Source: Gracilaria domingensis
Lineage: Eukaryota; Rhodophyta; Florideophyceae; Gracilariales; Gracilariaceae
Direction: 5' to 3'
DNA: 64,000 nt
NCBI GenBank assembly: GCA_022539475.1
Contig: VCMS01000031.1
Location: 62,001 to 126,000 of the forward strand
Shown here: one piece after another, positions 19,450 to 63,117 of the stretch
How the letters are laid out: every line of letters begins with the position of its first letter
How positions within the stretch are numbered: the stretch's first letter is position 1
Notes under the pieces: generated by a model
The model's database searches: none
The model's input: only the letters and a program-made list of their open reading frames with translations
Told to the model about the DNA's origin: nothing
Translations under genes and position numbers: made by a program

Positions 19450-21939
19450 GACCAATATCATTGACCTCAGTGGTAGCCCGGCTGGCGGAAAGAATGGTTA
19501 ACCGTGCATTCATGTGTTGGTTGGAACCAAAACTTCCCTCCTGCCAAGCTGGATTTCGTATGAATCGAACGACGGAAGAGCACATTGGAGCAATGAGCGA
19601 ACAGATCACACATGGATGGCAAAAACGTAGAGACACTCTAGCCATCTTATGTGATTTCTCAAAAGCATATGACTGTGTTGAACACCACAGATTGATGGTC
19701 AAACTAGCTCTCATGGATTGTCCCGTTCAATTATGGAGATGGTTACGATCTTTTGTCATGGATAGAAGGTGGACTTGCAGATGGAATACTGCGGATACGA
19801 GCCCATTTGTCGTACCTCAAGGACTACCTCAAGGGGGAACACTCTCCCCAGGACTATGGATAGCATACATCGCCGACCTGCCGCAACAGGTACTGGGTGA
19901 CGAAAAGCGAGTAAAGATTACGCTCTTTGCAGATGACGTTGCTATGTCGGCAACTCAGAGCAGATTGGAGATAAGCTGTGGATATCTGCAGGAAGCGATT
20001 CAACGTCTTGAGACCTATTGCGGGGAGAACAATATAGTTTTCAACCCAAGGAAAACCTGTGTTGTTCCCTTTACATATAAACGATGGAAGAAAGACAAGG
20101 AGAAGTACTCGATAATGGTGGCCGGGACATGGATACAGCTGCAGGACAGCGCTAGATTCCTAGGGGTGCAGATGGACTGTAGACTCAACTTTCATATTCA
20201 TCTCAATAAGGTAGCGGCAAAGTATCGATCGCGATGCAGAGTCCTGCGACACCTTACTGCGACAAGCTGGGGTGCTGATTGGGTTACAATGAACATTCTG
20301 AGAGTATCATTAGCCGAACCACTTGCACGATATGGTGCAGGTGTCATTATTCCAAATGCTCTTACATGTGCAGTCGAGGAAGTTGAGAGAGCCCGCAACG
20401 AAGCATCTCGGATTCAGACAGGATGTCCCCGATCATCACCTATTGTCAATCTTAGAGAACTGGTAGACCAGCCCAGTTTATATAGAGTTGCAGTCTTCCA
20501 AGCAGCTCAATTATACGAGAAGGCAATGAGATCTCCACTGACAGCACCAACCCCGATTGCAGATGCTCTGCGGAATGAAGCTGTTCCACGAATCAGAACC
20601 ACTCGGGCTACAGTTAAAGCAGCCGCAGAGTCTCGATTGGCAGACATAGGTTTAATGCAGTTGCCGAGAGCGCCCCTGCCTACTGAACCTGGACTGCATA
20701 ATGCAGATATGGTATTCTTTCATAAGACTAGCTGTACCAAGGAGGACCCCACATATGTTCAACGTAACCAGGCTTTGAAAGCAATGCAGGACCTTCCTAC
20801 AGCTAATTGCGAAGTTTGGACCGATGGATCTGTTGGTGTACCGAAATGGATTACAACATATAAACCGAGAAGAGTTGCTGTTCAATGGAATGAAGGTTAC
20901 TACACAGGCTCAATCCGGTATAATGAGGAGCTTGAGAACTATCAATCAGAGGTAGACGCATTTCTTCAACAGCAGGAGTCCCTTCCAGATATAGTAATTC
21001 ACTACGATGATGACTTTGTTATGGCATATAGCTACACAGCGAAGGATGGAATTGTCAAAGACAGTGATGGACATTTGCTACAAATGAAACCGCTTCAAGT
21101 GAAAGAAGTAGGGGCAAGCGCAGTGGCAATATGGTGGAATAATCAAGTAGACCCTCAGACAGAAGTTGCCCCAGCGGGAATTGGAGTATGTTCGTTTATT
21201 GCTGAGACAATAGCGCTGCGAATAGGCCTCCAGAACGTAAGCCATAGAGTTGACAATGGCTGGAGAGGTAGAATCCGTATCTTGCTTGACTCGCTGAGCC
21301 TCTTGGAAAGTTTGCAATCGCTGTTGCGAAGACAGTCATACTCGGTGCAAGAAGTTTCACGTCTGCTGTTTCACGTTGGTGCGGTTTGCGCGGTTGACAT
21401 GCTTTGGATACCAAGTCACTGTGGGTTGGAGAAGAATAAATTTGTCGATGGATTAGCAGGTGAAGCTCTGAACTTGCCTGTTGAGGCTCAAATTTCTATT
21501 CCAATTGACTATTCTGATGTTTCCAGAAGGATAAGAGATCATAATGAGAGACGACCTTTATTGCAGGCAGTACCAGAAGTGTTTGGAGATATTGTGTCCT
21601 TACGAGAAGCGGAAGCTACTTTGGCACAGCTTTATGTTGGACATTCACCGTACTTGCATCCTTTGGGTACTTATCTGCAAGGAAAGAGGTTGGTTTGCAG
21701 CTGTAGACCTGGAGTACTGAATTCAGTTGAGCATTATCTTTTGAGATGCCCAAAGAGGACTTTGTCCCGACGTTTGTGTTTACCTGCTCTGAGTGATCGA
21801 CAGGGTCTAGCTGTTAAGACGATAATTAGAAAATGGCCTGAAAAGGTTTTGGCCTTCCTAGTGAGAGAACGTTTCTTTCAACAGAAACGTTCTGTAGCAC
21901 GCCGGAATTAGGCTGTTACACCCATAAACAGAGAGAGAG
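19450..21939 (+). mobile_element. Non-LTR retrotransposon (LINE), 5'-truncated, young
   Basis: A 2490-bp insertion inside a VWA gene, bounded by a perfect 12-bp target-site duplication and ending in a (GA)n run (CCATAAACAGAGAGAGAG) rather than poly(A). It lacks the 5' end and any endonuclease domain, as usual for abortive reverse transcription. The remaining frame, 19461-21911, is unbroken. With the perfect duplication, this suggests a recent insertion. Confidence 0.9.
19461..21911 (+). CDS. LINE reverse transcriptase-RNase H polyprotein (5'-truncated)
   Basis: 816 codons, open from the truncation point, so the first residue is not a true start. The reverse transcriptase shows the finger region (CQAGFRMNRTTEEHIG), motif A (LCDFSKAYDCVEH), motif B (GLPQGGTLSPG) and the catalytic FADD near residues 156-159. 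A ribonuclease H domain follows, with WTDGS, AETIAL, LLDSLSLLES and WIPSHCGLEKNKFVDGLA supplying the acidic residues. The C-terminus carries a CSC...HYLLRC zinc-binding cluster. RT plus downstream RNase H without LTRs fits the I/Ingi-like group or algal and plant L1-type elements that acquired RNase H. The endonuclease expected upstream is absent. Confidence 0.9.
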   Translation: MTSVVARLAERMVNRAFMCWLEPKLPSCQAGFRMNRTTEEHIGAMSEQITHGWQKRRDTLAILCDFSKAYDCVEHHRLMVKLALMDCPVQLWRWLRSFVMDRRWTCRWNTADTSPFVVPQGLPQGGTLSPGLWIAYIADLPQQVLGDEKRVKITLFADDVAMSATQSRLEISCGYLQEAIQRLETYCGENNIVFNPRKTCVVPFTYKRWKKDKEKYSIMVAGTWIQLQDSARFLGVQMDCRLNFHIHLNKVAAKYRSRCRVLRHLTATSWGADWVTMNILRVSLAEPLARYGAGVIIPNALTCAVEEVERARNEASRIQTGCPRSSPIVNLRELVDQPSLYRVAVFQAAQLYEKAMRSPLTAPTPIADALRNEAVPRIRTTRATVKAAAESRLADIGLMQLPRAPLPTEPGLHNADMVFFHKTSCTKEDPTYVQRNQALKAMQDLPTANCEVWTDGSVGVPKWITTYKPRRVAVQWNEGYYTGSIRYNEELENYQSEVDAFLQQQESLPDIVIHYDDDFVMAYSYTAKDGIVKDSDGHLLQMKPLQVKEVGASAVAIWWNNQVDPQTEVAPAGIGVCSFIAETIALRIGLQNVSHRVDNGWRGRIRILLDSLSLLESLQSLLRRQSYSVQEVSRLLFHVGAVCAVDMLWIPSHCGLEKNKFVDGLAGEALNLPVEAQISIPIDYSDVSRRIRDHNERRPLLQAVPEVFGDIVSLREAEATLAQLYVGHSPYLHPLGTYLQGKRLVCSCRPGVLNSVEHYLLRCPKRTLSRRLCLPALSDRQGLAVKTIIRKWPEKVLAFLVRERFFQQKRSVARRN

Positions 21940-30811: not shown

Positions 30812-31901
30812 AGTATCCAGCGCTGCAGAACTGGCGCATCTGGAAAATATCTCGCACACCCATGCACGCGTGAAGGCAGCGGCGACGCCGTAAGGTTGGG
30901 AGCCACCAGCGCGCGCAGCCGCGCCACGTCCACGTGCTGCAGCAGCCGGCCGTGCACCAGCGCCACGCTCCACACCTTCGACAGCCGCACCACGTCGCCC
31001 ACAAACACCAGCGCCGGGCTGCGCATCGCGTGGCGCTGCGTCTCGCGCCACAGCTCGCTCAACGGCGCCGTCAGGATGCGCTACGCGCGCGTGGTGCCAC
31101 CGCCACACTGGGCGTGGTCGCGCACAGCCCGCCGCTCATCATCTGCTCCGCGATGCTCGGCAGCTGCGACAGCCCCATGTACACCACGTACGTGGTGTGC
31201 GCGTCCACGTTTGTGAGCTGCACCTCGCGCCCCTCGCGCGCGTGCCCCGTCACGAACTGTACAGAGTGCGCCACGCCGCGCTTCGTGAGCGGCATGCCCA
31301 GCTCCGTCGCGATGCCCGCCGCGGCGGTGATGCCCGCCGACACGGACACGCACACGCCGCGCTGCTCCAGATAGTCCAGCTCCTCGCCCCCGCGCCCGAA
31401 GATGAACGGATCGCCGCCCTTGAGACGCACCACCTTGTGCTTGCGCGCCGCGAAGAAGTTGAGCAGCAGATGGACGTCGTGTTGCTTGCGCGTGTGGAAG
31501 CCCGCCTGTTTGCCCACGTAGATGAGCTGTGCGTCGCGGTTGCACAGCTGCAGAATGTCGTGCGACACCAGACGATCGTACAGAATCACGTCTGCCGTCT
31601 GCATGTGGTGTAATGAGCGCAGCGTGAGCATTGACGGGTCGCCCGGTCCTGTGCCCACCAGGTGCATTTTTGCGGGCGCGCTGCCTTGGGAGTGCGCCTG
31701 CCGTGTGTGCTCTTGGTCGCGCAGCGTCGGCAGCAGCGCGTCAATGCACGTTGGGAAAGACGGCTGCGCGGAGGACGCGGCGTTGGCGTTGGATGGCAGT
31801 AGGGCGCGAACGGAGTGCGGCCGTCGGGGCGCACAAACGCGCGCTGTGCTGCGCGCGGCGCGCGACGACGACGGCAGCGATAGCGGCGTCACGAAGGCCA
31901 T
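30769..31901 (-). CDS. SUMT: Uroporphyrinogen-III C-methyltransferase (SUMT), one frame break
   Basis: Transfers methyl groups from SAM to C2 and C7 of uroporphyrinogen III, giving precorrin-2 for siroheme, the cofactor of plastid nitrite and sulfite reductases. The ATG at 31901 was chosen because it opens an MAFVTPLSLPSSSRAARSTA leader, like a plastid transit peptide with the N-terminal Phe typical of red algae. Family motifs follow in order: VGTGPGDPSMLTLRSL, ILYDRLVS, VRLKGGDPFIFGRGGEE, SAGITAAAGIATELGMPLT, VQFVTGHA and VVYMGLSQLP. Near 31070 one base shift separates this from the last conserved part (LTAPLSELW, RSPALVFVGDVVRL), which lies in the next frame. Either an assembly indel or recent damage. 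The tail beyond VVRL is unusually long. Confidence 0.75.
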
Positions 31902-33540
31902 GTTTGAGGAAGGAGACGACGGCAGACGACGGCGGCGGCGGCGGCGATAACGGCGCGGAAGCAAGCTTGCGCAACGGCGCGGCGCATGTATACGCGGCAG
32001 AGCCATTTCACAACAGCGCTGACGTGGAAGTTGGGAGTGGTGACCGTCAGCATGCCAGGCACGGTGCTGCCGCGCACCGCTTCCAGCGCCAGCAAAACCA
32101 TCTGCCTGCCGTCCCGTCACCGTGCCGAGCACGGCGAGCCCGTGTACCGCCTCCAGCGCAACTACCACCATCTGCCCGCCGTCCCATCACCGCGCCGAAC
32201 ACGGCGAGCCCGTGCACCGCCTCCAGTGCAACCAGCACCATCTGCCCGCCGTCCCGTCGTTGCGCCGAGCACGGCGCGCCCGTTCACCGCCTCCAGCGCA
32301 AGCAGCACAATCTGCCCGCGGTCCAGTGCTATCAGCAGCAGCGTGTTTATCAGCGCCACAGTCGTGCCCATCAGCGCCGAAAACGTTGGCGAAGCCGGCG
32401 CATTGTCGCATGCTAGCAACGCGACCATCTACAGTACACACCGGCCCAGCAGCTGCGCGCACATCTTCACCATGCTTTCCGGACAAGAAGGCTACGCGCA
32501 TGCCCCGCCACCGACGCTGCATCCGTCGCTGCTTCTGCAGCTGCTACAGAAGCCGAGCACGCCACGAGCCCTCGACAGCAGCCCGAAGGCCGTCTCCCAG
32601 TCGAACCGCGCAAACTCCACGCTGGGCGCGCCCGAACGGCAGCCGAGCAACGCGTTCGTGCCGCCTATAAGCGCATAGCGCGGGTTTAGCTACACGCCCA
32701 GAATTGCGACGCGGTCTGCTGCGCAGGGAAGCGTGCGGGGGCGCAGCGCGATTGGCTGCACGTCGCACTGCACGATGAACACCATCTCGTGCCCGCGCAA
32801 CGCGCGGATGTACTCGACGACTCGTACGTGCTCGATGCCCACGTTTGGACGGGCGCGACGTCTCCTGACTCAATTAAATCGCCCCTGCGCATCACGTCGC
32901 GCGCTCCTCCGCCGTGCCCGTCAATAACGTGCGGCACAGCCAGGCTCCACATCGCTGCGTGCTTGAACCTTCTCAGCGTCAGCTTTGACCCGAACAACGC
33001 GGATCACGCAAGCTCGAGGTGGGCGGGCAAGCTCGCGCCTATCAGAACCGTGCGCTGCGCCGGAACCGGTTCTGCAACAGGGTCTGCTTCTCTTCTGCAT
33101 TGTGGTTGTTGACATCGTCAACCCGCATGTTCGGGGAGGAGGAGACAAAGCTGAGGAGCAGCAGCAGCTGCAGGGCGAACTTTAGGATCGAAAAACGCAA
33201 CTTGAGAGAGAGCAGCTCGAGTTCCAAGCCGATGGAGAAGCTAGGCACGCGGATGACCTGCCCACGCGCCCCCACAAAGCGATCTGACTTTGTTCAGGGT
33301 GTGGGATAATACTGTCAGACCCATGACAAACAGCTGCACCTGACGCCACCGCACACGCGTGTAACGCAGCATCGCACGCGCTTTTGCCGAGCCCATCAAT
33401 GGAAGCTCGCCTCATCCGTCACTCGCGCTACGCAGTGCCCGCGCCGGAAGGTTGGATATTGCGATCACAAACGGTCTGATCCGGAGTGGCGCATCATTGC
33501 GAGCTCAAGCTCGACACTCTTCGCTTTAAACAAGAGACTG
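31902..33540. other. GC-rich intergenic with minisatellite and a coding remnant
   Basis: Contains the 70-bp tandem array at 32047-32325. On the minus strand at about 33150-32690, protein-like text appears in pieces of different frames (RRFKHAAMWSLAVPHVIDGH, then GIEHVRVVEYIRALRGHEMV ending near 32690), suggesting a broken gene of unknown family. Confidence 0.35.
32047..32325. repeat. 70-bp minisatellite
   Basis: Three full 70-bp units start at 32099, 32169 and 32239 (each CATCTGCC-GCCGTCCC...), with a diverged partial unit before and a partial after. Because 70 is not a multiple of three, it cannot encode a peptide repeat in one frame. Confidence 0.85.
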
Positions 33541-33545
33541 CTGCG

Positions 33546-34787
33546 ATGAATACGGAATGCTCAGACTCTTCAGAGTCCACTTTTTACGCCGAAAGAGATC
33601 GAAACATGGCCCAACTCTTCATGATCACCATGTATGCCTTCCTCATTGTCGTCCGCCACCTGGAAAAGAAAAAGAAAGCACGCACGGAGACACGCTTCCC
33701 TAAAAACAAAGAGAGGTTCGATGAGTTAACATCCGTGTACTCCGATCCAGACTTTCACGCCGCGTTTCGTATGAACCAGAAAACATTTAACCGCCTTTGT
33801 CACAAACTGCTGAAAAGCTCTTTCATCCGAGGGCGAGCTCCAACGAACACGCGAACTATTCCTGCGAGGACAAGAATCGCAATTGGTGTCCGAGTCATGG
33901 CCGGTGCAAGTGTTCACGACCTCATGCTCGCCTATAAGATGAGCAAGTCAAGCGTTTACAAATGCTTTAAAGCATTTATTTCAGGCGTCGTAGAAACAAT
34001 GGATCTCTCTGGAATCCCCGACACAGATGAAAAACTTGAAGAAGCAAATCTCAAATTTAAGATGTCGAGAAGGTTTCCGAATCCATTGACTGGCTGTATT
34101 GGTGCCCTTGACGGTATTTGCGTACGAATTAAGAAGCCTAGATCGTACGAAAACCCCAGTAGCTTCTTTTGTCCGAAGGGCTTTTTCTCTATTCCTGTCC
34201 AGGCTCTTGTAGACTCGTCATACAGGTTTATCGACTTTTCGGCGCTAGCAGTCGGTTCTACGAATGATGCGTTGGCTTTTGTTCTTTCGCCGCTTGCAAC
34301 GTTTTTGGACGCCGGGAAGCTATTGCCTGGGTACTTTGTGGTTGGTGATAATGCGTACACACTTTCCAACTGGCTTGTTCCTCCCTTTCCTGGGAAGAAT
34401 TTGGAAGCGTACGAGGACTCGACGAATTTCTTTTTATCGTCCATGCGCATTCATGTGGAACAAGCTTTTGGGATTTTGAAGCGAAGATGGCGAGTATTCT
34501 ACAATGGCGAGTTAAACTATGATATAAATGACTGCGTGCCTATCATCGCAGCAGGGATGCTACTGCATAATTTCTGTATCGACAACCAAGGAGTTAATGA
34601 ATATGAGTACAGCAGCGAGGAGGTGGACGCTCTAAAGCAGGAGTCTGCCGAATGGCATGCACTCGTTAAGCACAAGCTCAGCGAACATGGGGGAGATGCG
34701 TCTTCGTTGGATCGGGGTTCGATACGCGATTTATTAAGAGATGTTGTGAGGGAGAAGGGACTGCTTCGCCCCACTGTAGTGTGGTGA
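33546..34787 (+). CDS. PIF/Harbinger (HARBI1-like) transposase
   Basis: 413 residues from the first ATG (33546), intact. The N-terminal part has a helix-turn-helix (SVHDLMLAYKMSKSSVYKCF) as in HARBI1. The DDE nuclease (DDE_4 type) shows D189 in GALDGICVRI, D268 in VVGDNAYTL and E305 in RIHVEQAFGILKRRWRVF, so all catalytic residues are present. The C-terminus has the family's MLLHNFCID. It is convergent with the SAP-domain gene at 35328-36908; together they may form one transposon, since Harbinger elements carry a second DNA-binding protein. No terminal inverted repeats were found by eye. Alternatively it is a domesticated host gene. Confidence 0.9.
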   Translation: MNTECSDSSESTFYAERDRNMAQLFMITMYAFLIVVRHLEKKKKARTETRFPKNKERFDELTSVYSDPDFHAAFRMNQKTFNRLCHKLLKSSFIRGRAPTNTRTIPARTRIAIGVRVMAGASVHDLMLAYKMSKSSVYKCFKAFISGVVETMDLSGIPDTDEKLEEANLKFKMSRRFPNPLTGCIGALDGICVRIKKPRSYENPSSFFCPKGFFSIPVQALVDSSYRFIDFSALAVGSTNDALAFVLSPLATFLDAGKLLPGYFVVGDNAYTLSNWLVPPFPGKNLEAYEDSTNFFLSSMRIHVEQAFGILKRRWRVFYNGELNYDINDCVPIIAAGMLLHNFCIDNQGVNEYEYSSEEVDALKQESAEWHALVKHKLSEHGGDASSLDRGSIRDLLRDVVREKGLLRPTVVW

Positions 34788-53143: not shown

Positions 53144-53765
53144 ATGAGGTCGCCGCTGTTCCTGCCCGCGCCGCCGCTGCGCGCGCCGCCGCCGCCGCCG
53201 CCGCCGCCGCGCCGCCGCGCGCCGCGCGCGGTGGCGGCGCGGCGCCCCGCGCCCCCGCCGCCGCTGACGGGGCGCAACGGGCTGCCCAACGCGCGCGACC
53301 TGAGCTCGGCCGCGCCCGCGCTGCTGGCGCGCGGGCGCGTGTTCCGCGGCGCCGCGCCCGCGGCGCTGGCCGGGCCGCCGCACGCGCGCGCGGCCGCGCT
53401 GCTGCGCGGCGCGGCGCTGCTGCTGGACCTGCGCTCGCGCGACGAGCGCGCGTACGACGACGCGGCGCTGGTGGCCGCCGCGTGCGGCGCCGACGCGCCG
53501 CGCCGCGTGCGCCGCGTCGCGCTGCTCAACAAGCGCCGCGCGCTGCTGGGGCTGGGCCGCGCGCTGCCGCCGCCGCAGCTGCTGCGGCTGGCGGGGCGCG
53601 CCGCGCGCAACCCCGCGCGCGCGCGCGCCGCGGTGGTGGCGGAGGTGGACGCGGGCGGGCTCATCCTGCTCAACCAGATGCTGGTGGAGGCGGGCGGCGC
53701 GCAGATGGCGCGCGCGCTGCGCGCGCTGCGCGCCGCGCTGGCGGGCGGCGACGACGACGGCGGCG

Positions 53766-53799
<34 letters not shown>

Positions 53800-54142
53800 G
53801 CGGCGCGCGTACGTGTTCTGCAGCGCGGGCAAGGACCGCACGGGGCTGCTGGCGGCGCTGCTGCTGCGGCTGCTGGGCGTGGGCGAGCGCGAGGTGCTGC
53901 TGGACTACGCGCGCAGCGACGCCATGTGGGCGGACGCCGCCGCCGCGCAGCTGCGCGTGGACTACGAGGCGCGGCTGCGCCTGCACGGGCTGTCGCCGCC
54001 GCAGTGGCTGCGCGCGCCGCCCGAGGTGATGCACGCCACGCTGCGCTACATCGACCGCCGCTTCGGCAGCGTGGAGGACTACCTCATCGCCTGCGGCTTC
54101 GAGGAGCGCGAGTGGCGCGCGCTGCGCCGCGCGCTGCTGTGA
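53144..54142 (+). CDS. Tyrosine phosphatase (Y_phosphatase3-like)
   Basis: 332 residues. A Pro/Arg-rich leader (about 45 residues, perhaps targeting) precedes NGLPNARDLSSAAPALLARG, equivalent to the family's N-x-R-D-hG...G-x-hyR block. LLLDLRSRDERAYDDAAL corresponds to the DLRS..E motif. The active-site loop FCSAGKDRTGLLAALLL has Cys at residue 226, with the K-D-R-T-G form typical of bacterial-type, DSP and Siw14-like phosphatases. A Gly-rich insert of about 14 residues sits just before it. The C-terminus has RYIDRRFGSVEDYLIACGF, conserved in this family. Substrate (phosphotyrosine or inositol phosphates) unknown. Nearly every third base is G or C. Confidence 0.85.
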
Positions 54143-54716
54143 CTTGGCGAGCTCTCCCTGTCGCTCTCTCTCTCTGTCCCTCCTCCCTCTCTCTCCCCCC
54201 CTCCGCCTCCCGCCGCCTCGCTCTCTCGCGCGCGCGCGCGCGCGCGCGCGCTCGCGCGAGCGCCGCCGCGCCGCCGCGCGCCGTGCGCGCGCGCGCGCCG
54301 CGCAGTGGCCGTTGGCGGCGCGCCGCCGTCGGCTCGTCGCCACGCAACCGCGCGCGCGCCCAACCTTTTTCCGCCCCCCCCCCCCCCCCCCCCCCGCCGC
54401 CGCTGGCGCGCTTGCTCCGACCGCTCGCGCTTCCGCCGCGTCGTTTGCGCTCGCCCGCTGTGGCCGCCGCCGCTCTCGCGCAAGCGCGCTGAAACGCGTT
54501 GCGTGTGCGCGCCGCCGCCGCCGCCGCCGCGTGCCCACTTTTGCTTGCGTCGCGCGCGTTGCCGCTTGTTGGCTCACTTTGCGTGAGCGTGAATAAAGCG
54601 CCTACCAAAACACACACACACACGCAGAGGCAGGTCATAACAGCCGCCGCGCTTGCTTGTTGCTCTTTCTTCACCGACGCAACATCGTAGCACGCTGCCC
54701 GCCGGTGCGTTGTGTC
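54143..54716. repeat. Pyrimidine, (CG)n and poly-C low-complexity spacer
   Basis: A CT-rich tract (about 54155-54225), a (CG)12 run (54227-54250, Z-DNA prone), a C22 homopolymer (54374-54395) and a CGCC-rich stretch. A (CA)n near 54610-54622 precedes the BTB gene. All frames here are open only by composition. It must hold the phosphatase terminator and the BTB promoter. Confidence 0.8.
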
Positions 54717-56144
54717 ATGGACAGCCACCCCGCGCCCTCCACCATCGTCACGCTTCCCTTGGCACGCCGCCCGTGCTCGCCGCGCCTCCAGCACCCCATC
54801 AAGCGCCGCCGCGACGCCAACAGCGCCCACATCTCCATGGCCGGCGAGTGCACCATCGGCGGCCATCTGGACGCGCCCGCCCACCTGCGCTGCGTGCTCG
54901 CCAACATGCTGCAGGACCCGCAGCTGCACTCGCTCTGCGACGTCGTGCTCATCGTGCAGGACGAGCGCTTCCCCGCGCACCGCGCCGTGCTGGCCGCCGT
55001 GTCCACCGTCTTCAAGGCCATGTTCACCAACTCCATGAAGGAGCACCGCGCGCCCGAGATCGAGCTGCGCGCGCTGGACAAGCGCGCGTGGCGCATGGCC
55101 ATGCACTACATCTACCACGCGCAGCTGGACATCCACGACGAGCCCACCGCGCTGCTGCTGCTGGCCACCGCGCGCATGTACCAGCTGGAGCGCCTCGAGT
55201 GCTTTGTGCACAACTTCCTCGTGTCGCGCGTGTGCACGCAAAACTGCTTCTCGCTGCTGCACCACGCGCAGCAGTACGACCTCGCCGCGCTGGAGGCCGC
55301 GTGCTACCGCGCCATGGAGCACAACTTTGAGGCGCTGTCGCTGTCGCCCGCCTTCCTGCAGTGCCCGTACCAGCTGCTCACGCGCGTCGTGTCCAGCGGC
55401 GCGCTCATGGTCAAGAGCGAGATGTTTGTGTTCGACGCCATCTTGCGCTGGATCCAGGCGGACCAAAAGCAGCGCAGTGCGCACCTGGAACAGCTTCTGC
55501 AGCAGCTGCGGCTGCACAAGCTTTCCGACGCGCAGCTCGCCCAAATTGGGCGCTCCGCCATTGTGTTCAAGTCCGATTCGTTCCGCAAAATGGTGTTTGA
55601 CAGGCTCACCAGGCAACGCGGCGACGAGCAGGTGCAGCGCGCGCTTCAAAGCGCGTGCCACCTCAAGTCGCACCGTCGCGACGCCCAGGTGTTCTCCTTC
55701 TCGCACGTGCAGCGTGCCATCACCAGAATGCCCGCCGCCGACGAGGAGGAGATTGTGCGAACGCCGTGGGCGCTCGACGAGCACAGTGGAATCCTGTGGC
55801 GTCTAAAGATCTACCCGAGGGGGTATGGAAAGGCAAAGGAACTGTTCCTGTCCATGTACGTGCAGGCCAGAAGCGCCACGCCGCGTCGTCTGGATGTGAC
55901 GGCCAAATTCGACATCTTCTTGATCAATCGAAAAGATACTACGCAAACCATTTCGTTCTCGTCCTCGCACCACTTCACAGAGCTGAGTGATCATTGGGGC
56001 TTTCACCGCTTCTTGCAACTGTCGCAGATGAGGAACACGGCGCTGGGTTTCCTTGACGAGCACAGTGACTCCTTGTTGCTTGGAGCCACGCTTTACATGC
56101 CTTGTGCGGCAAAGGACAAATCCTGTTGTGCTGCCACATCATGA
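54717..56144 (+). CDS. BTB-BACK-MATH domain protein, likely CUL3 adaptor
   Basis: 475 residues from the ATG at 54717. BTB/POZ at about residues 65-165 (LCDVVLIVQDERFPAHRAVL, AAVSTVFKAMFTNSMKE), BACK at about 170-285 (CFSLLHHAQQYDLAALEAAC, VKSEMFVFDAILRWIQADQK), and a C-terminal MATH/TRAF-like fold (LWRLKIYPRGYGKAKELFLS, GFHRFLQLSQMR, LGATLYM). BTB-BACK proteins usually bring substrates to cullin-3 ubiquitin ligases; MATH binds the substrate. In animal SPOP and plant BPM proteins MATH precedes BTB; here it follows. Next to RPN1's proteasome function this is only thematic, as the genes are 8 kb apart. Confidence 0.9.
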   Translation: MDSHPAPSTIVTLPLARRPCSPRLQHPIKRRRDANSAHISMAGECTIGGHLDAPAHLRCVLANMLQDPQLHSLCDVVLIVQDERFPAHRAVLAAVSTVFKAMFTNSMKEHRAPEIELRALDKRAWRMAMHYIYHAQLDIHDEPTALLLLATARMYQLERLECFVHNFLVSRVCTQNCFSLLHHAQQYDLAALEAACYRAMEHNFEALSLSPAFLQCPYQLLTRVVSSGALMVKSEMFVFDAILRWIQADQKQRSAHLEQLLQQLRLHKLSDAQLAQIGRSAIVFKSDSFRKMVFDRLTRQRGDEQVQRALQSACHLKSHRRDAQVFSFSHVQRAITRMPAADEEEIVRTPWALDEHSGILWRLKIYPRGYGKAKELFLSMYVQARSATPRRLDVTAKFDIFLINRKDTTQTISFSSSHHFTELSDHWGFHRFLQLSQMRNTALGFLDEHSDSLLLGATLYMPCAAKDKSCCAATS

Positions 56145-56548
56145 TGATATCCACGTGTGGTTGCGGCTTTGGTTTTTTTTTTTTTCACTTGTGCAACTAT
56201 TTTGCTTGCTTTCTTCTTTCATTTGTGTCAACTATGTAACTATGTATTGGAGTACAACTAACGCTAATGTGTGCCACTGAGCACCTCCACTAAAAAGACC
56301 AAGTATCTATCTTCCAAAACAGAAAACGCTTCTGTCTACATGTACAAAGACGAGGATGAATAATTGCATTATTGGTGTCTTGACAGATTTTTTTTGCGAG
56401 CGAATCAACGTATTCTATCTGTCCTGTTTCTGCCGACAATCCACCGTCCAACAGCCTGTCCCTCGCAGTTGAGCTCCAGTTTAGGCCCTCGTGAAGACCT
56501 CGCTTGCTCGATCCGTCGCAGTTGTCTGTCGCAGCCGCCTGCTCCCCC
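56145..56548. other. Intergenic and leader region
   Basis: Poly-T tracts (T13 near 56174) and no gene. Alternative frames just before 56549 give other Ser/Pro/Arg-rich leaders, so a different N-terminus for the next gene cannot be ruled out. Confidence 0.45.
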
Positions 56549-58564
56549 ATGCCGCTTCTGCTCTTCCTCCCAGCCGCCCCGCTACTTCGTCAGCGGCCCC
56601 GTCCGTCCCTCACGGCCCCATGCCGCGCTCCACCTCGTCCTCGTCGCGTGCCCCATGCCTGCATTCCGCAGCCCCCCGACAGCGAGCCCGGTGATCCCGA
56701 ATGGATGCAGCTCGCGCGTGAGCTGGCGCCTGATTCTGAGGCAGTGCAAAAGCCCGCGAGCAAACCTCCGAAACGGCACAAGTGGAACTATCCGCAGGGT
56801 AAACTGGATGAGTTTGACGGCGATGGCGAAAACCCGTGGGCTGTCTGGAATGACGCCCAGAGTAGGTCCGGCGAACCGTTTGCTCAGCGCGACCCCAAGG
56901 CGGAGACTGACTTTTGGCGCGGTGCCGCACGTGATATTGCGGAAGAAGCGCCGATTGCGGATGAGCAACTGTCACAGCCCACGACTTCGTCTGACGTGTG
57001 GAGGATGGCGAGGGAGGTCACCGGCGAGATGGTCGACTTGCAGAGCAAGCTACGTGACGAGCTAGAAGATTATGATTCCGTGCAGAATGTGGATGGCTAT
57101 CGAGATATTGCGCGCGACCTGGTTGGACCGCCCCCAGAAGTGGGCGATGATGCGCGCCCGATTCGAGAAAGTGCCGACTTGGACAAGGGCGCAGAAGCGG
57201 GACAGGGGTGGAACCCTGACGTGGATTGGATGAGATTCGACGACGTGCAACGAGAATTGCGCAAGAAGAATGATAAGAACATGCGCCAAGAAGCAGAAAA
57301 GGCGGCGAGAGAAAGTTGGAGACAGCAGCGATCGTTTAATGAGCAGCCGAGCGAAGAACGGGTGTGGGAGACAGGCACCTACACTGATCAGTCGACGGCG
57401 CCGCACTTCTTGGAATCTAATTCTATGCCGCGCTTCATGCGCAATCGCTACATGCAGAGCGGGACGTACGGCGCGGGTTGGAATGGTGCCAAGAGTGAGA
57501 TGGAGCAGTTGACAAAAGAGGGTGTTCCCCTGAGAGATCCTAAAGCAGATGCTGATCAGTGGCGTTCCGTGGCGCGTGAACTTGACCTGGATGTGGAAGA
57601 CGACATTATCGCTGCCAATGAGCAGAGAGGCGCCGAGGACACCACCTCTGATATCAATGTGACTGTAGAGCGTACCGATAGTGATCCCGAGATCAGAAGC
57701 GTGGCTGCCACGGACGGACAAGGTGGCGGCGAGACCGCCTCTTGGGAGAGCTGGCGGAGCGGAACTGCATCTTGGGAAAGTGCAAATGAGAAGATACAAG
57801 AGAGAGACCCGAAAAAGGAGGTAGACATGTGGCGTTCAAGCGCACGTGAACTTACCACTGGTGCCACCTCGGGCGTGGATCAGAGCGGGGAGACTGCTTC
57901 GTGGGAGAGCTGGAGGAGCGGAAACTCCACCTGGGAATCCGCGAATCAGGAGCCGCAAGAACGAGATCCAAAGAAAGAAGTAGATATGTGGCGCTCCAAT
58001 GCCCAACAACTCTCCCCTTCAAGTCCGTCAAGCACGGCGGGATATGACAGCTCAAGTAGGGATTTGTCGAGTTCTGGTGACGCGGAATCGCAGCCTAGTG
58101 TTTGGGACTCGTGGCGCAACGCGAATGATCGTTGGATGCAGTCTCTGAATGATGAGGATGAGTGGAGTCAAGGACCGAATGACTTGTCATCCCTGTCGGA
58201 AACGCCGTCGGACTGGGGAGCACGGATGGGGAAGAAGACATCGTCTGAGCGTTCTGCTTGGCAGGCTTGGGAGAGTGCGTCCAGGAGAGAGGATACCACT
58301 ACATGGCAGGAATGGTGGAAGCTCCGAACAGATGCAGCACATCAGTCTGGTCCAAAGAAGAGTAGTGCTTCCTTGAATGATATCGATCAGTGGCGGGATG
58401 TGGCGCAGCAGGTTGCCTCTGGCGGAGGCAGACAACCGGATGCGCCGTCGGAGAGTATCAAGGGGTCAAAGAAAGCTCGCTTGGCTGATGATTCGGCCAT
58501 AAACTCCTGGAAATCTGTCGCGAGAGATCTTGCGATTGAGACTTCAAGCGAAGAGGAAGAGTGA
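56549..58564 (+). CDS. W-R repeat protein, possibly plastid-targeted, candidate linker
   Basis: 671 residues from the first ATG. The N-terminus (MPLLLFLPAAPLLRQRPRPS) is hydrophobic then Arg/Pro-rich, as in a plastid or signal leader. The rest looks disordered, charged and acidic, with a repeated helix D-x-W-[RK]-x-x-A-[RQ]-[ED]-[LIV]. Its Trp is at residues 52 (DPEWMQLAREL), 123 (DFWRGAARDI), 151, 338, 428 (DMWRSSAREL), 481, 615 and 654, with Tyr at 184. Several copies are led by RDPK-x-E/D-x-D. A 53-residue unit is tandemly doubled (ETASWESWRSG... around 395-485). No family is recognised. Spaced Trp-Arg helices in a disordered chain recall Rubisco-binding repeats of pyrenoid linkers (EPYC1), but acidity is unlike EPYC1. 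Confidence 0.7.
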   Translation: MPLLLFLPAAPLLRQRPRPSLTAPCRAPPRPRRVPHACIPQPPDSEPGDPEWMQLARELAPDSEAVQKPASKPPKRHKWNYPQGKLDEFDGDGENPWAVWNDAQSRSGEPFAQRDPKAETDFWRGAARDIAEEAPIADEQLSQPTTSSDVWRMAREVTGEMVDLQSKLRDELEDYDSVQNVDGYRDIARDLVGPPPEVGDDARPIRESADLDKGAEAGQGWNPDVDWMRFDDVQRELRKKNDKNMRQEAEKAARESWRQQRSFNEQPSEERVWETGTYTDQSTAPHFLESNSMPRFMRNRYMQSGTYGAGWNGAKSEMEQLTKEGVPLRDPKADADQWRSVARELDLDVEDDIIAANEQRGAEDTTSDINVTVERTDSDPEIRSVAATDGQGGGETASWESWRSGTASWESANEKIQERDPKKEVDMWRSSARELTTGATSGVDQSGETASWESWRSGNSTWESANQEPQERDPKKEVDMWRSNAQQLSPSSPSSTAGYDSSSRDLSSSGDAESQPSVWDSWRNANDRWMQSLNDEDEWSQGPNDLSSLSETPSDWGARMGKKTSSERSAWQAWESASRREDTTTWQEWWKLRTDAAHQSGPKKSSASLNDIDQWRDVAQQVASGGGRQPDAPSESIKGSKKARLADDSAINSWKSVARDLAIETSSEEEE

Positions 58565-60155
58565 GGGTTAATGTTATCGTAGGGGTTTACTGTTTTGTCT
58601 CAAGTTGATTTTGGCCAAACCTTCGCACACGTCTCAGAGATGTTGTACGTCTTGGGGCAGAAAGAATACGCGATGCGAAAGTATGAACTGCAAAACGAGG
58701 TTTGCAGTTCTTTGGCGTAGCCAGAGTGTTCTCAGTGGGTCGACTGAGCATGAAGGCGAGCTCTGCTTGGTGCAGTTCCAGGGAGTGCAACATATTCTTC
58801 CATTTTCGAACCGTCCTCGAGATGATTGAGGGACGCAATGAGGGAGGAAAGGAAGAGCAGTAGAAGGTTCACCTTGGCATGCGCGATTTGAATTCTTCAG
58901 TTTGATCTCGTCAATTGCTGTAACGTAAAGGTGAGTCTATCCGTCGTTTGGGGAGCAAAGGGATGTAGAGAACAATGCAAGGCTATAGATACTGCCCAAG
59001 GTACGAAACAGCGCCATATGTATCACCTTCGATGTTCTGGGTTGCTGGGTGCTGGAAAGTGCCCAATCAGATGCAGACTGTATCAAGATTCTTATGCTTT
59101 CCGCCGGAGCAAAGTAGCAGAAGATTCACGCAGCCAAGTCCTTCGCCGTTACCGTAATATCTGCCTTTCTCTACAAACATCTGCATCGGTTTGATTTGCG
59201 TTGGCCCGCAGTCATTGTCTAGATCAAGGATACCTAGAAATATCCAAGCGAAGTCAAGTATCCAAGGTGGACGTGGTGTCGGTTGCATCACTTCACGGTC
59301 ACCCTCAGCGGTTAGGAATTGCCGGAGAAAGCGTCACCCTCACTTTTTCGAATACCCGAGTGAGCCATGACGTGTGCCGCGGCAGAGCTAACAGAGGAAC
59401 AGACGCATCTACTTCTCACGGAATGGACGTGGCTCTCGGTTAACGTGACACGCCTGGAGTTCAATTTTGAATGAAACTGGTTATGTTGCTACGGCGCATG
59501 ATCTTCCCCGTCGACTCGATGGAATTGGGGGCTTTCCTCGGCGTTGCGGAGTGTCAGTTTGCAAGAAAAAAAAGATCGTGAGTAGCCATCACGCTGATAC
59601 TTGGAAGCGGAAATGAAGAGATTCGAAGTGCTCAGGAGCAGCCAAGGGACGCCGAGGACGCAGACAGAGACGTTGGCAACAGACGCCGTGGTGAGAATCT
59701 ACGGCACAAATAGCTCGAGGTATCTTTGTGAGATATTATGCAGCTCGGCAGTCTCTTCTGTCGGTAACGTTTGCTTCACGATCTGAGCCTCCCTGAAACG
59801 GTGCATCGTACTCATTCACGTGCGTCTAACGTCGAGCCGGTTGTTTTTTGCTGTTGATATGTAGATGGACGTGTTCTCACTGTTAGTGTGGCTGCCCGTG
59901 GGCATACTCTTTCTACTCTGTTGGCAAACAATCAGCAGCAAACAATCAGCAGCAGCCCTTTCGCTGCTGAGTACCGCTTTGTTCTCGGCAATATATATCG
60001 GCCATCGCAGTCTGAGGACGGAGACTGAATTTTGTGCGTGGTGGCCTGCCGTCTCTTAAGAAGCAGCTAAGAAACTGCTCCTGTCCCTTCGCTCCTCACA
60101 TGAACTGATCTGATTCCAAGTATTCCGCCAAGGAGAACAAGTACGTTTCGGAATC
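58565..60155. other. Intergenic, one possible small ORF
   Basis: Apart from the small frame at 59865-60059, nothing is supported. A 14-bp unit AACAATCAGCAGCA is doubled at about 59929-59955 within it. Confidence 0.45.
59865..60059 (+). CDS. Possible small membrane protein
   Basis: 64 residues from an ATG, with two hydrophobic stretches (LLVWLPVGILFLLCW and AALSLLSTALFSAIYIG) separated by a short polar turn. No family recognised. It ends 96 bp before the zinc-finger gene start, so it could equally be leader sequence of that gene. The only evidence is its hydrophobic pattern and ATG start. Confidence 0.3.
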   Translation: MDVFSLLVWLPVGILFLLCWQTISSKQSAAALSLLSTALFSAIYIGHRSLRTETEFCAWWPAVS

Positions 60156-61080
60156 ATGAATAGAATGCATCATCTTCAGCAGCACCCTGAGCTCCAAGCA
60201 GCTCTCCAGTCTTCAAGTTCTCGCCCAACTGCCGGGAACGTATGTCCGGTCTGTCATAAGGTACGTGTTTAAACTGAGTTCATCATCACATCCTCGCCTA
60301 GAAAAACGTTTACTGACCAAGTCAATTGTCGTACTTTTGCTCGGTCTGTTAACAACAAAGGCGTTTGACCGTATGTATAACCTGAAGGTTCACTTTCGAA
60401 AACATACTGGAGAGACGCCGTACACATGTCCTGTTCACAACTGCTCAAAACAGTTTCGATGGAGAAGTTCTATGGCGCATCACGTGAGGGCGCACCATGA
60501 TGCGAGTGAGACAGCGGGGGTGAGCCTTCGGACGTCGAACGATGGGCATGGGAACAAGGGAAGTGCCAGAGCTCAGAACGCTGCGGTCGTACAACAGCCA
60601 GTGCGCCCCACGGCTTCCATTTCACGCGCACTAGGCATTCAGAAACCGCAGCGCAAAAGAGCTCCAAGAGCCTCAAAAGTCGCAAAGAAACGAGACGCTT
60701 TGAAATCCACTGTGGAGTTGAACGACTCTGTTGTTGAATCGTACGCCGAACCGGACTCCACCCCCCTGCTCACAATCTCCGCTGATCCGCTCAAACTCGG
60801 CGACGAGTGTGACTCGAATGAGGCCGAACTTCTCTGTGTTCTCCCCGATGTCTTGTCCGGGGATACTGATGTCTTGGATGATGTGGATGAGATGTGCTCC
60901 TCTGTTCCCTCTACGTTTGCAGAAGACCCGCTGGAAGATTCTGCAGATGTGACGCTTTTCCTGGTGTCCGGACCGGATGATGCTGCGAACGCGGAACTCG
61001 ACGCCCTCGATCGAGATGCATTTCTGAAAGCGGCTGTGGAAGCGACAAACCTCCCACTGAACGAATATGCCTTGATGTGA
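60156..61080 (+). CDS. C2H2 zinc-finger protein, one intron
   Basis: Two exons, 60156-60260 and 60361-61080, encode 274 residues. Splicing joins CPVCHK to AFDRMYNL and so completes the first C2H2 finger (C-x2-C-x12-H-x3-H). The second finger follows after the linker TGETPY (CPVHNCSKQFRWRSSMAHH, C-x4-C-x12-H-x3-H). The linker is the classic TGE-x-P type, indicating DNA binding. The middle is basic (QKPQRKRAPRASKVAKK, nuclear signal) and the C-terminal 110 residues are strongly acidic with bulky residues (LPDVLSGDTDVLDDVDEM), like an activation domain. Likely a transcription factor. Without the splice the first finger lacks its cysteines. Confidence 0.8.
60261..60360 (+). other. Spliceosomal intron, 100 bp
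   Basis: Begins GTACGTGTTT and ends AACAAAG, phase 0, with branch-point-like TACTGAC and GTTAAC. Removing it rebuilds a perfect zinc finger across the join. Confidence 0.8.
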
Positions 61081-61761
61081 CGAAGTCCAGAAAGGCCAAG
61101 AATACGCTTCTGCTCCACGACATGTACCGCTCTTCTGGCCGGGAATGCTAACTTACCCGCTAACACATATGCTGCGGTTCTCAACCAACTGCAACACTCC
61201 ATCGGTGGACGATTCCTGCTTTTGCGCAAAACGGTTGGATTTGTCATATATGGTAGAGGTTGTCCGAACTTGGGTTCTCGGAATGAACATGTCGTGGAGC
61301 TTCGTTTGTCAATCCTGCCTTGTGTCGGAGCTTGGAACGTCAACTTTTATGATTTCACCTTCACGATGGTCTGTGTCCAAGGTCTTTCTAACTTTTGCTT
61401 CAAGGAAAGCGTGCACAGTATCTTTTTTTCTCTAACTTGACAAAAACCTTCATAGACTACTGTACGGAAGCACAGATTTGCGTGAGCATCAGTAGCCGGG
61501 TGCTACTTTTCGATATACCTCTTATCGCTTGTAAATCTGTTTATCACTAAAAGTGTGCTGTTACAACAATTCAACGTCAGCCAATTCAGTGCACGGAGAA
61601 CCCCACGGGGAGCGTCTCTTTGACGATAGATGCTCACAGAGGGCCGGGAGTAAGTTTGCGCGTGACACGAAGGCGTGCCAGAAAAAAGAGTGGGGGGGTG
61701 GGGAGTGCAGGGTCGATGAGAGGGGGTATTACATATGTTGGTTTAAATAGAGAAGACAGTG
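61081..61761. other. Intergenic, nothing recognised
   Basis: Separates the ends of the convergent zinc-finger and DBP5 genes. No domain-bearing frame. Confidence 0.5.
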
Positions 61762-63117
61762 TCACAGATTTTGGATTCTTTCGGAAAGTTGTTCAACATC
61801 TGTAACCTTTTCAATCGTCTTGGAGTAGTAAGTTTCCAGCTCCTTGAGAATGGCTTTTGTGCGGTCATCGAACACAAAGTTGATGGCAACTCCTTTGCGC
61901 CCAAAGCGTCCCGTGCGGCCGATTCGATGCAAGTACGTCTCGGGGTCTGCCTGCGTGCCATACCTGTCGGTGGGCAGATCGTAGTTGATGACGGCATTGA
62001 CTGCCAGCACATCGACGCCGCGACTGAGCACGTTGGTGGTGATGAGTACGCGCGTGGTTCCAGCGCGAAATTCGTCAATGACGCGGTCCCTCTCCTCGGG
62101 CGTCATGTCGCCACCGTACAGCACCGACACGGTATGTCCGTCGTTCCTCAGCCGTTGCGTGAGCGAGTGGGCCTCATGTCTGGTGCGCACAAAGATGATG
62201 CTCTGCCCCAGCGCAAGCAACGCGTAAATGTCGGACAGAATGGTGAAGCGCTCCTCCTTGTTGCCCGTGTCAATGTAGTACTGTTTGACCTTGTCAAGCG
62301 ACAAGGTCTCTCGTTTAATCGTAATCTGGTTGGCGTTGGGGGCGAGTTTGGTGGCCAGCCTCCGCACGGCGTCCTTGTACGTGGCGGAAAACAGCAGCAC
62401 CTGCACGTCCCTCGGCAGGTTGCGCTTGATCCGGATGGTCTGATCGCCCATGCCCTGCAGATCGACCATCTCGTCGGCCTCGTCCAGCACGAGAATCCTG
62501 ACGGAGGAGGTGGTGAACTTGCGCTTCTTGATAAACTCCATGACCTTTCCGGGCGTGCCGACCAGAATGTGCTCGCGAATGACGCCCGAGCTGGCGGCGG
62601 CGCAGTTTTGGCGGCGCTCCTCCTCGGTGGCCTTGATGGCGAGCGCGGCGGTGGCGCGCGTGAACTTGCCCAGCGAGATGATGACGTCGCGAATCTGGCG
62701 CGCCAGCTCCCTGGTGGGCACGAGGCACAGCGCCTGCGTGGTGTGGGCGTCGGTGTCGACGCGCGACAGCATGCCCAGCACGAAGGAGGCGGTTTTGCCC
62801 GAGCCGTTGTGCGCCTGCGCGATGAGGTTCTTGTACTCGCCGTTGGCGGGCAGAATCATGGGCAGGCTGGTGGCCTGGATCTTGGAGGGCTTGGAGAACT
62901 TCATGTGGTAGATGCCCTTCATGAGCTGCTCGGACAGGCCGAGCTGCTCGAAGGTGTTTGCCGAGTAGTAGGGCGTGGACGGGTCGGCCTGCAGCACCTG
63001 GATGCGCGACGTCTCGTCGCCCGGGTCGATGCCGGACAGCAGCTCGGGGGCGACGGAGAGCGAGAGCTCGTCGGCGCCGCCCTCGTCGGCCCAGTCCTCC
63101 TCCTCGCGCGGCGGGCG

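Follow-up and report, generated by a model that had tools for sequence, protein, structure and literature searches.

Introduction

Rubisco linkers such as EPYC1 of Chlamydomonas and PYCO1 of the diatom Phaeodactylum, whose Rubisco is of form ID, bind Rubisco and tie it into a network, and the motif of EPYC1, W-[RK]-x-x-[LIVA], follows directly on an Asp or Asn. Passages of PMC10288592 and PMC10473226 describe EPYC1 as a positively charged chain with evenly spaced motifs, directed at green-type small subunits and with variants of its motif in other pyrenoid proteins. For PYCO1, passages of PMC10288592 give a pI of 10.03, likewise describe a positive charge, and report two large-subunit helices, AAEWGSMNQ and ASEWASMNT, together with seven named pocket residues. 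The linker search set out in parts of PMC11570498 asks for disorder, repeated structured elements and a spacing of 20-120 residues; a figure legend also mentions pI. According to passages of PMC13159521 and PMC10473226, linkers arose convergently and share little or no homology across lineages; these passages name no red-algal linker. We found none in the open-licence literature by title or the start of the abstract, which is not proof of absence.

Here we describe a gene for a tryptophan-rich protein, the W-repeat protein, in a stretch of 64,000 nucleotides (the window) from the nuclear genome of a red alga. Like EPYC1, the protein has a probably disordered chain with several predicted Trp helices and a W-[RK]-x-x-hydrophobic core; unlike EPYC1, it is acidic and irregularly spaced, its host has a red-type Rubisco, and the strict motif is intact in its own gene only. 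With PYCO1 it shares a red-type Rubisco host, whose RbcL has all seven pocket residues, and two aromatic candidate sticker classes with uneven spacing, and its W-x-S-x-N element resembles the large-subunit helix of PYCO1, whereas PYCO1, compared by description, has a basic pI, KWSP small-subunit stickers and prion-like segments. CsLinker of Chlorella, found by the FLIPPer search and described in parts of PMC11570498, is likewise disordered with repeated helical elements at a linker-like spacing, but its host, again compared by description, has a green-type Rubisco.

Results

An intact tryptophan-rich gene

The frame that the sequence-only reading had placed at 56549-58564 is exact. It opens with ATG, runs for 671 codons to a stop codon at 58562-58564 without the need for an intron, and is preceded by an in-frame stop at 56492 (Table 1). 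On one flank, also on the + strand, are two frames, one for a BTB-BACK-MATH protein (54717-56144) and one for a member of the tyrosine phosphatase family (53144-54142); on the other is a + strand frame at 60373-61080 with a zinc-finger match below the cut-off. A profile search of the flanking frames showed no link to carbon fixation among these neighbours. Elsewhere the window holds a reverse transcriptase/RNase H-like frame (19494-21911) and a HARBI1-like transposase frame (33546-34787), both named by eye from their translations.

Table 1 Features of the W-repeat gene, in window coordinates
Feature	Position	Strand	Basis or remark
W-repeat protein (probably disordered), ORF of 671 aa + stop	56549..58564	+	single exon; open, under purifying selection as judged by silent and replacement counts
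Leader, aa 1-44, candidate targeting peptide	56549..56680	+	sequence; first 40 residues without acidic residue, Pro/Leu/Arg-rich
Motif A1, PEWMQLAREL (W52), relaxed	56696..56725	+	predicted helix 50-57
Motif B-like, WAVWNDA (W97/W100)	56837..56857	+	sequence
Motif A2, DFWRGAARDI (W123)	56909..56938	+	predicted helix 116-133
Motif A3, DVWRMAREV (W151), relaxed, one residue short	56993..57019	+	predicted helix 147-175
Motif A4, DGYRDIARDL (Y184)	57092..57121	+	predicted helix 183-191
Longest predicted helix, aa 230-264	57236..57340	+	block pLDDT 75-82 over 231-260, the model's highest blocks
Motif A5, DQWRSVAREL (W338)	57554..57583	+	predicted helix 331-344
Tandem unit 1, aa 394-437 (motif B WESWRSG..WESAN, then motif A6)	57728..57859	+	vs unit 2: pS 0.91, pN 0.14
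Motif A6, DMWRSSAREL (W428)	57824..57853	+	predicted helix 421-436
Tandem unit 2, aa 447-490 (motif B WESWRSG..WESANQ, then motif A7)	57887..58018	+	repeat comparison
Motif A7, DMWRSNAQQL (W481)	57983..58012	+	predicted helix stops at 480; Trp just outside
Motif B, WDSWRNANDRWMQSLN (W519/522/529)	58103..58150	+	predicted helix 518-533
Motif B, WQAWESAS...WQEWWK (W571/574/586/589/590)	58259..58342	+	predicted helices 565-580, 583-598
Motif A8, DQWRDVAQQV (W615)	58385..58414	+	predicted helix 610-623
Motif A9, NSWKSVARDL (W654), relaxed, Asn for Asp	58502..58531	+	predicted helix 643-662

Motif A recurs beyond chance

The sequence-only reading had counted about nine D-x-W-[RK]-x-x-A helices along the chain. 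Six sites fit D-x-[WFY]-[RK]-x-x-A strictly, one of them with Tyr (W123, Y184, W338, W428, W481 and W615), but nine are reached only with three relaxed sites: W52, with Met after the Trp and no Asp at −2; W151, with the Ala one residue early; and W654, with Asn at −2. None of 5,000 composition-preserving shuffles contained six strict sites (mean 0.05, maximum 2), and the same holds for a longer-tail variant, [WFY][RKM]xxA[RQ][ED][LIV], which also has six sites (W52, W123, Y184, W338, W428 and W654; 0 of 5,000 shuffles, mean 0.002). The longer-tail variant had no match in the window's other six-frame stop-to-stop stretches of at least 60 residues (62,522 residues). The tail of motif A is regular, mostly A-[RQ]-[EDQ]-[LIV].

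Spacing and motif core both bear on the proposal that the protein is a Rubisco linker. The nine anchors (residues 52, 123, 151, 184, 338, 428, 481, 615 and 654) are separated by irregular gaps of 71, 28, 33, 154, 90, 53, 134 and 39 residues; six of the eight fall within 20-120 residues, with 154 and 134 outside, and together with a probably disordered chain and repeated predicted helices this favours a linker. Motif A also fits the core of EPYC1, W-[RK]-x-x-[LIVA], although, since the copies are homologous repeats, we infer that this likeness comes close to a single evolutionary draw. All six sites that fit the core carry Asp or Asn at −2 and none at −1, in agreement with the earlier remark that the Asp sits one residue further from the Trp than in EPYC1. 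Against a linker, the strict pattern is intact in the W-repeat gene only: in the genome assembly (77.9 Mb, 680 contigs) the motif A DNA pattern, searched in its strict form, had four matches, three in the gene and one in a decayed copy of it, compared with one match in a reversed control and a background of two for the pattern with its spacing one base off. A protein query made from the compound unit described below gave 10 matches up to an E value of 10, all in the W-repeat gene and its copies.

Around the 32 Trp, Asp is enriched 2.8-fold at −2, Arg 4.0-fold at +1 and Leu 5.5-fold at +7, with Ser enriched 2.1-fold at −1 and 3.1-fold at +2. Gly at −1 is at background (1.0-fold), and at +1 it falls outside the five most frequent residues. 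These contexts bear on the possibility that the protein is of the Argonaute-hook type, in which Trp along a disordered chain occupy Argonaute's tandem Trp pockets. Argonaute hooks have Trp flanked by Gly or Ser and are not known to be helical. As in such GW/WG proteins, the chain is Trp-rich (5.1% of residues 41-671), probably disordered and Ser/Gly-bearing, many Trp lie 7-30 residues apart, and the genome encodes Argonautes, with four Piwi-domain genes. Its Trp, however, are flanked by Asp, Arg and Ser in helix-like motifs and not by Gly, and both the background level of Gly at −1 and the excess of Arg at +1 speak against the hook; the enrichment of Ser does not count against it. We consider this reading very unlikely. 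The Argonaute/Piwi genes themselves lie on contigs C25, C207, C61 and C140, with open frames of 886-1098 amino acids.

An acidic chain with predicted helices on the tryptophan motifs

The earlier description of the chain as charged holds, as does its contrast with the positively charged EPYC1, and the chain is hydrophilic: residues 41-671 have a pI of 4.52, a GRAVY of −1.24 and a net charge of −49 (78 Lys and Arg versus 127 Asp and Glu), and the protein lies beyond the Uversky charge-hydropathy line on the disorder side (H 0.362, boundary 0.441). This acidity counts against a Rubisco linker, as does that of RbcL and RbcS of the host (the RbcS value is for the whole open frame, including residues before the likely start).

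An AlphaFold model built on the single sequence had a mean pLDDT of 47.8, with 418 of the 671 residues below 50, 31 at 70-90 and none higher; because only one sequence was used, low pLDDT is no proof of disorder. The model contains 21 helices that take up 42% of all residues. Eight of the nine motif A anchors fall inside predicted helices; of 670 circular shifts, 7 reached as many. Among the Trp as a whole, 20 of 32 are in helices. From the model, the chain is probably mostly disordered, with short helices on the Trp motifs. Foldseek returned no match at E ≤ 10 with this low-confidence model, as expected for such a model.

An acidic, probably disordered chain with aromatic helices and an acidic C terminus would also suit a nuclear regulator, in which acidic aromatic amphipathic helices serve as activation or co-regulator docking segments, and two basic clusters picked out by eye, PPKRHK and KGSKKAR, could be nuclear signals. 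However, activation helices do not usually have Arg at +1 or Ala at +4, and Pfam and NCBIfam profiles revealed no DNA-binding or other domain. A nuclear regulator is, in our estimate, quite unlikely.

A second motif class and an old tandem duplication

Two features go beyond the sequence-only reading. One is a second class of Trp motif, motif B (W-x-x-W / W-E-S-A-N), which pairs Trp at i and i+3 and in three of six places adds a third at i+10 (WESWRSGTASWESAN). Motif B followed by motif A makes up a compound unit roughly 50 residues long, and the other feature is a tandem repeat of this kind with a period of 53 residues. Silent sites are near saturation between the two tandem units (pS 0.91) at a pN of 0.14, which indicates that the duplication is old and that the repeats have been held by selection. 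Between the units, GETASWESWRSG differs by five silent and no replacement changes and the short SWESAN/TWESAN stretch by three of each; the motif A part shows 12.5 silent versus 3.5 replacement differences, by a counting of silent sites that is crude, with pS above 1 in this part. The divergence of the units is not what recent slippage or gene conversion would leave behind.

The W-E-S-A-N(-Q) form of motif B resembles the PYCO1 helices AAEWGSMNQ and ASEWASMNT, which favours a Rubisco linker. At both W409 and W462, however, Ala stands where the W-[GA]-S-M-N of PYCO1 has Met, and shuffled sequences contain [AS]-x-W-x-S-x-N in 3.4% and W-x-S-x-N in 13.5% of cases; as the two WESAN copies are moreover one event, the resemblance is weak evidence. 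The contexts of the 32 Trp include no KWSP, a further point against the linker.

The window copy is constrained, its best-covered relatives decay

Parts of the segment at about 54600-62000 of the window are copied on four further contigs (C9, C57, C181 and C214), in all of which the gene has decayed; in the genome, an intact member was found in the window alone. The C57 copy lies in two halves about 34 kb apart, the C9 and C214 matches extend into the BTB gene, and in C214 the downstream flank is matched as well, as far as 62000, with 95% identity. At compared codons, C9 and C57 have nine in-frame stops each. No stop interrupts the 229 codons of C181 and the 108 of C214 that can be compared, and both copies carry large internal deletions, with a change of frame between pieces according to the match coordinates.

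We then counted changes private to each sequence, leaving out sites with fewer than two copies, gaps and sites at which more than one sequence deviates, and setting aside one window-private site with a stop in the copies (W522). The window copy has 18 silent and 16 replacement changes, compared with 35 silent, 91 replacement and 9 stop changes in C9 and 48, 127 and 10 in C57. The silent share is about 26% in both decayed copies, where neutrality predicts 22-29%. The window copy differs from the decayed copies by Fisher's test with P = 0.0014 when stops are counted as replacements and P = 0.0029 without them, and window-private sites covered by three copies gave a similar picture (9 silent, 7 replacement; P = 0.018). 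C9 and C57 share the stop at W522 and may thus share a pseudogene ancestor, in which case the window-private class includes their common branch, a bias that works against a conclusion of purifying selection. As far as such counts can be read, they show that the window copy is under purifying selection and that C9 and C57, the best-covered decayed copies, drift about neutrally. Together with the constraint on the tandem repeat, this selection makes the motifs old and selected.

These counts bear directly on the possibility that the frame is a chance or non-functional one in a duplicated, decaying segment, a reading that draws on the four decayed copies. The silent and replacement counts, both for the window copy and between its internal repeats, in the main refute it, and we regard it as barely credible.

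The other two copies had fewer private changes (18 silent and 17 replacement in C181, 2 and 4 in C214). C181 looks non-neutral, as if it had long been constrained and had broken late; C181:100802-101847 may have been a second functional paralogue until not long ago; its middle is now deleted. Differences at third codon positions are more numerous also in C9 and in the 5' half of C57. Of the 18 premature stops at compared codons of C9 and C57, 12 fall on Trp codons; G-to-A is the commonest private change in both copies, and a Trp-rich gene is prone to such stops.

Searches for relatives

Pfam and NCBIfam profiles gave no match to the W-repeat protein at E ≤ 1. PDB sequence matches at E values of 0.36 and 1.4 were taken as chance. 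A profile of the nine motif A sites gave five matches among PDB chains; the top one, 7pvp, owes its whole-chain E value of 1.2e-6 to the sum over one fragment of the chain that is present six times, at 4.7 bits per copy, and no copy passes singly. The matches to 4i0x (E = 0.1) and to 8wql, chain LPP2 (E = 0.31), were treated as chance. The viral and prokaryote collections yielded two and seven stretches that fit the pattern, none of which was confirmed by tblastn. Nor do the residue positions fit LIR, UIM, Pex5 or adaptin motifs.

The leader is atypical of plastid import

The first 40 residues contain 2 Ser and Thr, 11 Pro and a first Phe at position 6, whereas four plastid-type leaders used for comparison have 5-10 Ser and Thr, 3-5 Pro and Phe at 3-4. 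The comparison set consists of three light-harvesting leaders, from five stretches of which the other two have no leader, and one methyltransferase-like leader set at an internal Met of the frame at 31071-32171, which was named by eye. The hydrophobic start (2.06 over nine residues) is the highest of six leaders and would also allow a secretory signal. The leader, MPLLLFLPAAPLLRQRP, resembles the N terminus, MRSPLFLPAPPLRAPP, of the neighbouring tyrosine-phosphatase-family frame; this likeness may reflect only the local GC-rich composition. On sequence grounds a plastid leader is possible but atypical, and its unlikeness to the four plastid-type leaders weighs against a Rubisco linker.

The host has a red-type Rubisco with the PYCO1 pocket residues

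Contig C680 (179,836 bp) is the plastid genome, with rbcL, rbcS (recognized by eye), phycoerythrin and phycocyanin genes and a frame read as CbbX, whose Walker A motif was matched by a looser pattern. An Rfam search of 10 of its 19 stretches gave one group II intron signal. RbcL has its nearest PDB match in 8bdb, which we take to be Rubisco of the red alga Griffithsia, and from its PDB neighbours the host enzyme is presumably form ID. The phycoerythrin and phycocyanin beta chains are no more clearly close to 1eyx and 2bv8, which we take to be Gracilaria chilensis proteins, than to further PDB chains; 2bv8 came second, 0.4 bits behind. The seven residues of the PYCO1 pocket are all present in RbcL (Y89, D92, F102, F104, L361, F366 and F482), with numbering taken via 7yk5, which we take to be Phaeodactylum Rubisco. 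A phycoerythrin-bearing red alga with a red-type Rubisco makes a Rubisco linker possible; the plastid genes for both subunits, the frame read as CbbX and the conserved pocket all favour it.

The ChlL P-loop was not found in six frames of C680, also by a looser pattern, in a search that covered all but nine bases between stretches and the final 0.8 kb. According to parts of PMC4337275, chlL is absent from Chondrus, two Gracilaria and Grateloupia, and also from Porphyridium, Cyanidioschyzon and Cyanidium; Porphyra, two Pyropia and, among florideophytes, Calliarthron have the gene. This negative result for chlL, the plastid size and phycoerythrin lean towards a florideophyte seaweed as host. Most florideophyte seaweeds are not known to have pyrenoids, and a 180-kb plastid in which no chlL was found, as in some florideophytes, counts against a linker. 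Stylonematophyceae, in a passage of PMC8523428, include species with and without pyrenoids.

Discussion

We consider it somewhat likely that the W-repeat protein is a nuclear-encoded, intrinsically disordered multivalent scaffold with two classes of Trp sticker. Its repeats, the selection on them, its composition and the decay of its copies are the observations on which this reading builds. Motif counts above those of all 5,000 shuffles, selection on the window copy and between the tandem units, and the placing of motif A anchors in predicted helices speak for it. A folded orphan protein, or an ordinary multi-motif binder without a bridging role, would look alike, and the low mean pLDDT of a one-sequence model and the share of Trp placed in its helices also tell against the scaffold.

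Such a scaffold would carry stickers A (D-x-W-R-x-x-A-R-[ED]-L) and B (W-x-x-W / W-x-S-x-N) on an acidic spacer chain rich in Ser, Asp and Glu. On meeting the partner, each sticker may become helical and insert its Trp into a groove there, accompanied by Arg/Asp salt bridges; through many weak contacts, one chain could link several partner molecules or keep them in a condensate.

Rubisco is the best single partner that we can name for this scaffold, and a tentative one that is probably wrong. That the protein is imported into the plastid, where segments of class A, class B or both would bind and network form ID Rubisco as in PYCO1 and EPYC1, is by analogy with these linkers an unlikely reading. 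The earlier proposal of a candidate linker is supported by the hydrophilic, probably disordered chain, the selected Trp motifs with their predicted helices, the roughly linker-like spacing and the red-type Rubisco of the host; the protein's acidity, the atypical leader and a strict motif intact nowhere else go against it. A more specific version, in which an acidic, lineage-specific linker organizes red-type Rubisco through two classes of Trp segment, one of them in the large-subunit pocket used by PYCO1, possibly without a visible pyrenoid, is distinctly improbable.

Binding to Rubisco, if borne out, would make the W-repeat protein a linker from the lineage in which the diatom Rubisco originated, and would show that a linker can do without a basic chain. 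Otherwise it would still be a multivalent orphan protein that is under selection and has two defined classes of sticker.
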